A stretch of DNA of 42,038 nt from an uncultured Lachnoclostridium sp. (GTDB taxonomy: Bacteria > Bacillota > Clostridia > Lachnospirales > Lachnospiraceae). Numbering within the stretch: the first letter of the stretch is position 1; every line of letters begins with the position of its first letter. Both the position numbers and the translations under genes were made by a program. Below, in pieces: positions 26,987 through 30,492 of this stretch. The stretch is taken from contig CALWDO010000023.1 in the NCBI GenBank assembly GCA_944376715.1, forward strand, positions 1 to 42,038. The letters are read 5' to 3'. The notes under the pieces are model-generated. The model saw only the letters and a list, made by a program, of their open reading frames with translations. It searched no databases and was not told the DNA's origin.

Positions 26987-27574
26987 ATGAAAAAAAGAAC
27001 TTTATTAGCAGTTGGAGCCATCGCCGTTTTATTACTCACCGGATGCCAGTCTTCTTCATCCAATGCGGAGACGGAAGCTTTAAAGGAACAGGTCGCGCAG
27101 CTGGAACAGCAGATCGCAGACCTCCAGGCCGCAGACAGCGCCAATGACGCCGCAGCGGCAAATGATGCGGCAGCAGCAGACAACACGTCATCAACGGACA
27201 GCCAGACAGCAGACCCGGCAGCAAACGCCGCCGCGGATACCGGCGCCGCGGACACTTCCGCGAACAGCGGCGCCTCCGCTACCACTTATACATTAGAAGA
27301 ACTCACCACCATGGTCAACGACTATGTAACGAAAGCAGACGCCGCCGCTCCCAGCGGAACCAACGATATGGAGCAGTTCTTCTCCCTGAAACAGGAAGCG
27401 AATCAGATTGACAATGAACTTGAAAGACATGAAGACGAACTGGAAAGACAGTATCGAAACGGCTCCCTCACCAGGGATGAATTCCGTACCAATGAAAGGG
27501 AACTGGATCATCTGGAAGACCTGCTGGACGCAGCGGAAGACCAGATAGAATATGTATTCGGAATCGACGACTAA
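26987..27574 (+). CDS. small Ala/Asp-rich lipoprotein of unknown function
   Basis: A 195-residue predicted lipoprotein, the only supported plus-strand gene. The signal peptide MKKRTLLAVGAIAVLLLTGC ends in lipobox LLTGC with Cys20. Residues 30-47 form a short coiled coil (TEALKEQVAQLEQQIADLQ). Residues 49-100 are low-complexity Ala, Asp, Asn, Thr, Ser. The C-terminal half is charged and helical, with ELERHEDELERQY and LDHLEDLLDAAEDQIEY repeating a heptad-like pattern. The ATG follows GAGGAAAAAATAT. No known domain is recognised. It is bracketed by divergent glgX upstream and a strong terminator downstream. The coiled-coil plus flexible linker suggests an outer-face structural or stalk protein; this is only an inference. 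Confidence 0.85.
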   Translation: MKKRTLLAVGAIAVLLLTGCQSSSSNAETEALKEQVAQLEQQIADLQAADSANDAAAANDAAAADNTSSTDSQTADPAANAAADTGAADTSANSGASATTYTLEELTTMVNDYVTKADAAAPSGTNDMEQFFSLKQEANQIDNELERHEDELERQYRNGSLTRDEFRTNERELDHLEDLLDAAEDQIEYVFGIDD

Positions 27575-27592
27575 TCAGTCAGAAATCACATA

Positions 27593-27618
27593 CCGCCCGG
27601 CAGATCACTGCCGGGCGG
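27593..27618 (+). terminator. terminator of the lipoprotein gene
   Basis: CCGCCCGGCAG and CTGCCGGGCGG pair perfectly over 11 bp around the loop ATCA, followed on the plus strand by AAATATTTTAT. It lies 19 nt after the stop codon. Confidence 0.9.
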
Positions 27619-27627
27619 AAATATTTT

Positions 27628-27850
27628 ATGATGCCAGGGTCAAAAGGTCTGAACCCACATGAGCTTGCTCATAAGTGGATGAAGGGCCTTGGGACCCGCT
27701 CCGATATGAGCATAAAAGTGGGATGGACATCCCACGATATGCGAATATTGGGGAGGATTGTGGGGCGCTGAACGTCCGGTGGACGTTCGCTTAGCGCCGA
27801 CCGGAGCGACAGCGGAGACCGCGAAGTACGGAACAATCCGCAGGCATCAT
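27628..27850. repeat. nested inverted-repeat element (candidate structured RNA or non-autonomous repeat)
   Basis: The 305-bp gap between two convergent genes (27575-27879) holds the lipoprotein terminator and this element. A closing pair ATGATGCC/GGCATCAT (27628-27635, 27843-27850) encloses: CCAC-ATGAGC/GCTCAT-GTGG (27655-27678); GTGGGAT/ATCCCAC (27718-27735); and an outer pair GGATTGT/ACAATCC (27755-27761, 27833-27839) that encloses a 6+8-bp hairpin, GGCGCT-GAACGTCC/GGACGTTC-AGCGCC (27764-27798). A short stem GGGGC/GCCCC (27856-27870) follows outside. All pairs are compatible with one multibranch fold on either strand. No protein is supported. Orientation is unknown. Whether it is multicopy cannot be seen from one window. 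Confidence 0.65.
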
Positions 27851-27879
27851 GGCTGGGGGCTTTTGGCCCCAACATCATT

Positions 27880-30492
27880 CTATTTAACACGGATCAATTT
27901 ATAGATCTGCAGCAATAACGTAGGAATAAATGCCAGTACAAAGATGCTCAGCGCTTCGCTGCCCGTAAGCGGTGATACCGTAAACAGCCCCTGCAGACCG
28001 GGAACAAACAGCACCAGACACAACAGCGCCAGTCCCAGAACAAAAGCGCCGATGCTCCATTTGTTGCTTCCCAGACCGATCTTCAATATGGAACGGTCGC
28101 TGCGGCAGTTAAACCCATGGAACAGCCTGGCCAGTGTCAGCACTGCGAAGGCCATGGTACAGGCCACCGCGCTGCCGCGTCTCATGCCGATATAGAATCC
28201 GCCCATAACCGCCACCGCGATCATGGCTCCCTGAACCAGAAGCTGCGTCATAAACGATTTAGTCAGGATTCCTTCCTTCGGATCTCTGGGTTTTTCCTTC
28301 AAAAGCGTCTTATCTGAAGGTTCCATACCGATCGCCAGAGCCGGAAGCGAATCCGTCAACAGGTTAATGAACAGAAGCTGTACCGGTGTAAAAGGGGACG
28401 GAAGAGCCGTAATCGAACAATACAGCACCGCCAGGATCGCCGCCATATTTCCGGACAACAGAAAACGGATCGCGTTCTTGATGTTGCGGTACACATTTCG
28501 TCCATTCAGTACCGCCTTAATGATAGTGGCGAAATTGTCGTCCGTCAGGATCATAGCCGCCGCGTCTTTGGAAACCTCAGTTCCTGTAATCCCCATAGCC
28601 ACGCCGATATCCGCCTTCTTCAGCGCCGGCGCGTCGTTGACACCATCGCCGGTCATAGCCACAATCCGGCCCTTTCTCTGCCATGCGTCCACGATCCGGA
28701 TCTTATTCTCCGGGGATACACGGGCATAGACAGACACCTTTTCCAGCACCTGATCCATCTGATCGTCGCTCAGCGCATCCAGCTCCGTACCCGTCAGAGC
28801 CATATCGCCTTCTTCGTAGATACCGATCTGGGCAGCGATGGCGGAGGCTGTCACCTTGTGGTCGCCAGTGATCATGATCGGGCGGATGCCGGCGCTTTTG
28901 GCGTCATGTACTGCTTCTTTCGACTCTTCTCTGGGCGGATCCATCATAGAGATCAGGCCCAGGAATGTATAATCTCTCTCATTCTCCAGAGAAAGCACAT
29001 CGTCCTCTCCCACTTCTTTATAGGCAAATGCCAGGACACGCAGTCCGTTTCTGGAAAACTGCTCGTTCTGCTCCAGAATCTTTTTCCGGTCGTCTTCGGT
29101 AAAGGCTCTCACCCCGTCCGCTTCCGCAATCTGCGTCACCCTGCCCAGAAGCACGTCTACCGCGCCTTTGGTAAGCACAGTCGGAATCCCATGCAGGCGG
29201 TACTTGGCGCTCATCAGCTTCCGGTCCGAATCAAACGGAATCTCTTCCATCCTGGGCATCATACTGCGGATCGTCTCCTCAGAAATGCCCGCCCTGGAAA
29301 GTCCTGCCTTCGCAGCCATCTCCAGCAGGCAATATTCCGTAGGGTCTCCCACGCCGCTTCCGTCTTCCTGAAGATAAGAGTCATTAGCCAGAATCGCCGC
29401 ATACAAGAGATATCTGTGAAGCTGCGTACGGATATCCACCTGTTCCGGACGGATCACCTGTCCGTCGATATAGATCTCCTGCACAGTCATACGGTTCTGC
29501 GTCAGAGTACCGGTTTTGTCGGAACAGATCACAGACACGCATCCCAGGCTTTCCACGGCCTTCAACTCTTTGACGATAGCATTTTCCTTAACCATCCGCT
29601 GAGTCCCCATGGCCTGGACAATCGTCACAATAGAACTGAGCGCTTCCGGAATCGCGGCCACTGCCAGCGCAACCGCGAACATCAGGGAATCCAGGATCGG
29701 CATATCCCGGTACACGCCCAGGAAAAATACCACAATACAGATGGCAATAATGATAATTGCCAGTTTCTTGCTGAAATTATCCAGGCTCACCTGCAGCGGC
29801 GTCTTCTTCGCCTGGGTATCGTTCATCAGGTTGGCGATCGTGCCGATCTCAGTATTCATACCGGTACCCGTCACCAGCACATCCGCGCGCCCGTACGTCA
29901 CCAGACTTCCGGAGAAAACCATATTGGTGCGGTCCGCCAGCGGCTGCTCCCCTTCCAGTACCTGGTCTGTCTTATCTACATTGGTAGACTCTCCAGTAAG
30001 TGAGCTTTCGTTGACCTGCAGAGAATAATTCTTCAGGATCCGGCCGTCCGCCACGATCATGTCTCCTGCTTCCAGGCAGAGGATATCGCCCGGTACAACC
30101 AGTTCAGATTCAATCTCCATCTTATGTCCGTCCCTGAGAACTTTTGCGTGAGGAGAGGACAATGCTTTCAGTGAATCCAGAGATTTCTCCGCTTTTACAT
30201 ACTGGACCGTACCCAAAACCGCATTGAGCACAATTACTACAAAAATAACAATCGTACTTTCTATATTTCCTGAGATCATGGAAATAACCGCCGCCACAAT
30301 CAGGATCAGTACCAGCAGATCGGCAAACTGTTCCAGAAATACCTGGAGCGTGCTCTTCTTCTTCGCCTCTTTCAGCGCGTTTCTCCCGACTTCGTCCAGC
30401 TTTTTCTTTGCCTGTTCTGAAGTCAGGCCGTTCCCATCTGTCTGGAACTGGCTGAACAGTTCCTCTTTAGACATCTGATAAAATGGTTTCAT
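27880..30492 (-). CDS. P-type ATPase, calcium-translocating type
   Basis: An 870-residue P2-type cation pump with about ten membrane segments. The actuator TGES is at 166-169, the phosphorylated Asp325 is in CSDKTGTLTQN, and the hinge is VAMTGDGVNDAPALKKADIG. The N-terminus MSKEELFSQFQTDGNGLTSEQA is the cation-ATPase N-domain. Calcium-type site residues appear as AIPEALSSIV in M4 (281-290) and NLLTDSLPALAIGMEPSD in M6; bacterial Ca2+ pumps such as Listeria LMCA1 have similar segments. Expected to export Ca2+ (possibly Mn2+). The ATG at 30492 follows AAAGGAATATGCGGC. It lies 43 nt after the methyltransferase with no terminator between, so they are probably cotranscribed. Confidence 0.93.
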   Translation of the reverse strand: MKPFYQMSKEELFSQFQTDGNGLTSEQAKKKLDEVGRNALKEAKKKSTLQVFLEQFADLLVLILIVAAVISMISGNIESTIVIFVVIVLNAVLGTVQYVKAEKSLDSLKALSSPHAKVLRDGHKMEIESELVVPGDILCLEAGDMIVADGRILKNYSLQVNESSLTGESTNVDKTDQVLEGEQPLADRTNMVFSGSLVTYGRADVLVTGTGMNTEIGTIANLMNDTQAKKTPLQVSLDNFSKKLAIIIIAICIVVFFLGVYRDMPILDSLMFAVALAVAAIPEALSSIVTIVQAMGTQRMVKENAIVKELKAVESLGCVSVICSDKTGTLTQNRMTVQEIYIDGQVIRPEQVDIRTQLHRYLLYAAILANDSYLQEDGSGVGDPTEYCLLEMAAKAGLSRAGISEETIRSMMPRMEEIPFDSDRKLMSAKYRLHGIPTVLTKGAVDVLLGRVTQIAEADGVRAFTEDDRKKILEQNEQFSRNGLRVLAFAYKEVGEDDVLSLENERDYTFLGLISMMDPPREESKEAVHDAKSAGIRPIMITGDHKVTASAIAAQIGIYEEGDMALTGTELDALSDDQMDQVLEKVSVYARVSPENKIRIVDAWQRKGRIVAMTGDGVNDAPALKKADIGVAMGITGTEVSKDAAAMILTDDNFATIIKAVLNGRNVYRNIKNAIRFLLSGNMAAILAVLYCSITALPSPFTPVQLLFINLLTDSLPALAIGMEPSDKTLLKEKPRDPKEGILTKSFMTQLLVQGAMIAVAVMGGFYIGMRRGSAVACTMAFAVLTLARLFHGFNCRSDRSILKIGLGSNKWSIGAFVLGLALLCLVLFVPGLQGLFTVSPLTGSEALSIFVLAFIPTLLLQIYKLIRVK

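Follow-up and report, generated by a model that had tools for sequence, protein, structure and literature searches.

What is the strongly folding sequence that occupies the gap between two convergent genes in the window, the whole stretch of 42,038 nt analysed here? A sequence-only reading of positions 27628..27850 had proposed either a structured non-coding RNA or a non-autonomous repeat mobilised by a transposase encoded elsewhere, and each half of this proposal met with evidence: a match to an RNA family with covariation for the first, and dispersed copies, inverted ends, target duplications and an empty site for the second. The repeat reading explains more than the structured-RNA reading, and it is highly probable (about 0.92) that the element, catalogued in Rfam as the Clostridiales-1 RNA, is a Lachnospiraceae MITE, one of the short DNA transposons that do not move autonomously. 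The gap itself is convergent as described, with the plus-strand ORF ending at 27574 and the minus-strand ORF ending at 27880.

The nested stems reported for this site lie well above chance. On the plus strand, 27620-27875 is predicted to fold at -123.6 kcal/mol, whereas its shuffled versions average -83.7 (z -7.9) and none of 200 reaches the same value, and the minus strand gives a strong but weaker fold (-109 kcal/mol, z -6.9). The predicted structure comprises a closing stem enclosing three hairpins, the third of which is enlarged by an extra module of ~57 nt. This fold contains the pairings singled out beforehand: the closing stem, the 7-bp internal stem and the 6+8-bp hairpin. The last of these is part of the extra module (27764-27820), which is missing from 69 of the 76 distinct copies. 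When the whole window was submitted to cmscan, a single above-threshold match was returned, to RF01699, Clostridiales-1 RNA (Weinberg et al., 2010; PMC2864571), at 27629-27849 (+). Sequence and structure match over the full model with 111.2 bits, above the curated gathering cut-off of 48 bits. This family is catalogued as an sRNA, having been a candidate RNA without known function in 2010, whereas the element described here is better understood as mobile DNA. A table in the available part of that article lists the motif as probably an RNA and probably not cis-regulatory; motifs absent from its main text are placed in Additional File 1, and the same part makes no mention of mobility, inverted ends or target duplications for Clostridiales-1. 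The main text of PMC4081043 does not mention this RNA, and searches by family name, accession and MITE terms, with subscription papers and ISfinder outside their scope, gave no title or abstract opening in which the family is called mobile.

Reading of the flanks has shown that sequence conservation extends past the 3' side of the Rfam model, up to an inverted counterpart of the 5' end, and the element ends are imperfect 18-bp terminal inverted repeats of the form GATRYYRGGGTCAAAAGG. The stretch 27628..27850 stands as the folded feature but not in its right end, as the element continues for ~26 bp to 27876. Delimited by its ends and by the empty site described below, the element is too short for a transposase gene, and the window copy has a GC content of 57%. 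Its parts and immediate surroundings are the following.

27593..27618 (+): intrinsic-terminator-like hairpin of the upstream plus-strand gene, outside the element and also present at the empty site
27623..27629 (no strand): left target-site duplication ATTTTAT; the identical 7-mer stands once at the empty site in G299
27630..27876 (+): whole mobile element, 247 bp, with ends of the terminal inverted repeat type, flanking 7-bp repeats and absence from the empty site
27630..27647 (+): 5' terminal inverted repeat GATGCCAGGGTCAAAAGG, a pattern match with 3 mismatches to the 3'-type end; family consensus
27629..27849 (+): Rfam RF01699 match, cmscan 111.2 bits, model positions 1-166 of 166
27629-27635 with 27843-27849 (+): closing stem, from the RF01699 match
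27637..27697 (+): hairpin 1 (GGGTC...GACCC) with a CUUG loop, from the fold and covariation in relatives
27699..27753 (+): hairpin 2, whose internal loops are purine-rich (GA/GA), from the fold and covariation in relatives
27755..27839 (+): hairpin 3 (GGATTGT...ACAATCC), enlarged by the nested module, from the folds and covariation in relatives
27764..27820 (+): nested module within hairpin 3, a palindrome plus tail GACCGGAGCGACAGCGGAGACC; modules with the same tail occur in 7 of 76 distinct copies
27859..27876 (-): 3' terminal inverted repeat GATGTTGGGGCCAAAAGC, read on the minus strand, a pattern match with 2 mismatches
27877..27883 (no strand): right target-site duplication ATTCTAT, with one difference from the left copy

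Evidence for insertion has been obtained from the sequences flanking such ends. Among 115 end-delimited elements (ends with at most two mismatches to the pattern, each joined to its nearest partner alone, with 10 flanking bases to either side; duplicates were taken out, which covers G194, a genome that seems to recur among the named records), 57 carry perfect 7-bp direct repeats against a shuffled mean of 1.96, and 74 carry 7-bp repeats with at most one mismatch (shuffled mean 11.31). Perfect 8-bp repeats flank 11 elements (shuffled 0.14) and perfect 9-bp repeats none, while some of the 41 elements without a 7-bp repeat within one mismatch have 8-bp repeats. The 57 perfect duplications mostly read ATNNNAT as a consensus. 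They are not merely a longer inverted repeat, since repeats that do not end in AT also exist, such as ATATTAC (L036) and TTACAGAA (L039). In a stricter test of 270 ends, 100 had a partner at most 420 bp away with an exact 7- or 8-bp duplication and two had a farther partner, one unlike the terminal inverted repeat and one joining two separate copies; the other 168 had no partner with such an exact duplication.

The duplication around the window copy itself, ATTTTAT/ATTCTAT, is identical at 6 of 7 positions. One empty site has been found, in G299, a genome of the same genus, which aligns to window positions 26987-27629 (83%) and 27875-28300 (89%) with the element absent. A single ATTTTAT is present there, and the terminator-like hairpin and both gene ends are retained. 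The right duplication (27877-27883) takes in the stop codon (27880-27882) of the minus-strand cation ATPase gene, and as read from the alignment this stop is TAA in G299 and TAG in the window. That the sequence is merely the transcription terminator of the two convergent genes is extremely unlikely: the convergent position, the hairpins and the one terminator-like match within the element (minus strand, 27735-27718) would fit such a role, but a separate terminator-like hairpin at 27593-27618 serves the plus-strand gene and occurs in G299, where the element is absent, and convergent gaps account for just 11 of the 61 copies scored. The window copy is probably near-neutral at its site, since it adjoins the ATPase gene just past its stop codon and lies downstream of an existing terminator-like hairpin.

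The sequence-only reading had suggested that similar sequence may occur in other Lachnospiraceae, and the distribution of the element fits this. The window's own genome (88% complete, 79 contigs) holds about four copies: besides that in the window there are one that runs into a contig end and two remnants of reduced length, one of which (C3) is flanked by the perfect 7-bp repeat ATAATAT. RF01699 matches with E <= 0.001 occur in 161 of 299 sampled genomes of the same family, the window's own included, 130 of them above the cut-off, and by hand count 53 of the 161 stand at the scoring ceiling of nine matches. In a class-wide sample, 16 of 391 genomes match (13 above the cut-off), with 12 of these in the same family, one in the same order and three elsewhere in the class. 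The genome G271 contains 162 end-like sites, against 6 for a reversed control pattern. A scan of named records, which is not a census, yielded at least 119 stretches with the 3' end pattern; the 80 matches listed are mostly from Lachnospiraceae, the others including some Clostridiaceae, Eubacteriales and one Coriobacteriales assembly.

With copy L013 as query, no match was detected in 72,556 plasmid records, and 17 of 50,697 phage records matched, all of them unannotated faecal 'Bacteriophage sp.' records of 4-11 kb. On these results the element is not a plasmid or clear phage feature, and the 17 records may be bacterial contigs rather than phages. Whole or part copies of the element are seen in MT837347, MT837121, MT837314 and others of these records. 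Four scans of viral contigs for exact end patterns gave 9, 0, 0 and 8 contigs.

Short and broken forms bear on what the folded body contributes to movement. Perfect 7-bp repeats flank 6 of 19 elements shorter than 60 bp and 9 of 22 elements of 60-129 bp, together 15 of 41, the remainder of the 57 being longer; some forms of 35-120 bp from which most of the fold is missing are among those with duplications. As some copies of 35-37 bp, barely more than two ends, also have perfect duplications, we infer that the folded body is a passenger that is dispensable in cis for movement. Post-insertion deletion could be the source of single short forms with duplications. In the genome G194, four forms of 69-70 bp occur at different places, none with a perfect 7-bp repeat and two with repeats identical at 6 of 7 positions. 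Several G271 copies, at loci such as L248, L250, L262, L268, L274 and L279, keep the 5' end and break off variably toward the 3' side, and 29 of 44 G271 5' ends among the matches listed have no recognised 3' end, a proportion that results partly from the narrowness of the search range and of the pattern used.

The compensatory changes that had been named as the mark of an RNA are present. In an alignment (A1) of 20 diverse copies out of 33 printed loci, compiled from copies other than that in the window, 96.7% of cells pair and two-sided changes occur in 27 of 44 pairs. The covariation score is 0.458 against 0.188 when shuffled and at most 0.115 when the structure is slid, the unslid version being favoured because this alignment also supplied the structure. 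Of five covariation measures, the number of further pair types did not rise above the shuffles (45 vs 43.9). By table sum, two-sided changes account for 145 cells and one-sided changes for 24. The GA/GA internal loop is invariant in all 20 sequences, 18 of which retain the CUUG loop.

A strand-symmetric process would be expected to leave G.U and A.C in equal numbers. In 75 distinct copies (the first 64 of 119 A2 rows and the first 11 of 36 A3 rows) there are 89 G.U and 25 A.C, with 53 cells of other mismatches, and the ratio is 61 to 25 after one column holding 28 G.U is dropped; these counts are not independent, the copies being related by descent. The plus strand folds better than the minus strand in 71 of 71 distinct copies (the first 63 A2 rows and the first 8 A3 rows), by a mean of 11.8 kcal/mol as RNA and 4.4 as DNA. 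Among G271 copies this lean toward G.U is weak (12 distinct changes vs 5 distinct A.C), 41 alignments of the G271 type contain 20 distinct changes that break a pair vs 23 that keep it, and some copies are truncated. Taken across lineages, the fold of the body is kept, mostly in the sense of one strand.

Such conservation could also arise at the level of DNA, the arms being kept complementary by a process such as template switching between the arms of an imperfect palindrome, with no RNA function involved. This explanation is on balance unlikely: it would suit the large excess of two-sided over one-sided changes, but a strand-symmetric process would not be expected to produce the bias seen in G.U and in folding energy, even if that bias is modest and partly shared by descent. 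Somewhat unlikely too, and to be held tentatively, is a MITE in which selection acts on the RNA, with a transcript that, for example, blocks or triggers cleavage of the mRNAs into which it is inserted or acts in trans. The excess of G.U over A.C and the constancy of the GA/GA and CUUG loops argue for it; against it stand the relatedness of the copies, the weak lean and near-equal pair-breaking and pair-keeping changes in G271, the truncated copies of that genome, the want of a tandem strand preference and the number of further pair types at shuffled level.

Genome context bears on a further reading, that of a stand-alone small RNA gene family in multiple copies, as implied by the Rfam type 'Gene; sRNA'. 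Among 61 scored contexts, 24 are divergent, 14 tandem opposite, 12 tandem same and 11 convergent, with 12 others dropped for lying near a locus end or having no neighbour, and with genes taken as crude ORF picks rather than annotation. The even tandem orientation (12 same vs 14 opposite) gives no sign of a cis-regulatory strand, and a simple consensus scan found no sigma-70-like promoter match in 27500-28000. The curated family, the two-sided changes with their covariation score and the better folding of the plus strand in every distinct copy compared would all agree with an RNA gene, but target duplications, the empty site, shortened derivatives, the even tandem orientation and the result of the promoter scan do not, which makes this reading very unlikely. 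With no strand preference in tandem contexts, and with duplications on some short forms from which most of the fold is missing, the most suitable reading of RF01699 is a MITE with a folding body.

The features found are those of a MITE: a short sequence without a transposase gene, terminal inverted repeats, target-site duplication and many dispersed copies. Several observations count against this reading. Covariation and strand bias exceed what a plain MITE needs, and the GC content of the window copy contrasts with the AT-richness reported as typical of MITEs in the part of PMC10969869 available. The copies in the own genome are few, there is a single empty site, the window duplication is imperfect, 41 of the 115 elements and 168 of the 270 ends gave no duplication in the tests above, and a search through five transposase families yielded no autonomous element that has these ends.

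In the search for the transposase, PF00872 (IS256) matched in 4 of 8 copy-rich genomes, PF01610 (ISL3) in 2 of 8, PF01609 in 5 of 7, PF06782 in 3 of 10 and PF12762 in none of 10. None of the five fits, each being missing from some of the 7-10 copy-rich genomes examined for it. At 41 transposase loci from the five families, a few of which end early at contig ends, the 14-base end pattern never formed an inverted pair and gave some single chance matches. Inverted end pairs 700-4500 bp apart, sought in loci from L124 upward, gave four hits in three loci; in every hit one end was weak and a duplication was lacking. The first 60 residues of ORFs inside 14 unusual ends, judged by eye, included none that was transposase-like. 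The ends may belong to a transposase family outside the five, or their transposase may no longer lie close to ends of this kind. For the MITE, a DDE-type transposase acting in trans would bind the ~18-bp ends, cut an ATNNNAT-type target with a 7-bp stagger and insert the element, gap repair would then create the 7-bp duplication, and the folded body would ride as a passenger. Its likeliest effect would be local, in that a copy within a transcribed region could form a self-contained folded RNA domain.

Comparable elements are known from other bacteria, and the likenesses drawn here rest on their descriptions in the parts of the articles available. QMITE2 of Coxiella burnetii is a MITE with 7-9 bp direct repeats, terminal inverted repeats of 23-29 bp and a core with a predicted folded transcript, and sRNAs derived from it have been mentioned (PMC10969869); it resembles the present element in its direct repeats, terminal inverted repeats and folding core and differs in genus and in the inverted repeats themselves. 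BOX, RUP and SPRITE of Streptococcus pneumoniae are repeats scattered through intergenic regions, for which RNA stem-loops are predicted, and BOX has a modular build (PMC3049150). The host differs, and convergent gaps are over-represented for these repeats, whereas divergent gaps (24 of 61) outnumber convergent ones (11 of 61) here. ERIC and Correia are likewise small folded repeats, in other hosts, and can alter mRNA cleavage once transcribed (PMC3049150). A precedent for mobile repeats curated as RNA genes is provided by the MITE-derived microRNA families in Rfam, but these are plant microRNAs and not bacterial sRNAs (PMC4383904). With the MITE reading, an RNA family listed since 2010 as an sRNA with no assigned function gains an explanation as mobile DNA, while Rfam-based annotation would otherwise call many 'sRNA genes' in each such genome. 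The ends and the target consensus allow the missing transposase to be searched for, and the family offers a system for asking why a MITE keeps a covarying, strand-biased fold.

Hairpin 3 adds a further layer to the element. The module inside it consists of a palindrome with varying arms and a tail like GACCGGAGCGNAGCGNAGA. It has been detected in 7 of the 76 distinct copies (the first 65 A2 rows and the first 11 A3 rows): the window copy, four from G194 (L106, L040, L041 and L103), L175 and L195. Several G271 copies outside this set (L244, L261, L270 and L281) also contain it. The module enters after GGATTGTGGG in the window and L175 and after AGG in G194 and G271, giving at least two entry points, and is possibly a second mobile hairpin in its own right, though no target duplication was noticed around it. 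It is a rather doubtful, speculative extension that the element is a non-autonomous DNA transposon with a strand-specific selected RNA, for example one guarding the mRNAs it has entered or acting in trans on transposition, whose hairpin 3 is a landing site for a second mobile hairpin; if true, the element would then be a MITE that bears an RNA and contains nested mobile modules. A tail of the GACCGGAGCG type is common to the modules of several lineages. In the same-genus loci L051, L058 and L059, a like module is present around 1504 inside a different dispersed repeat, with arms like GAAATGGAAA / TTTCCATTTC.
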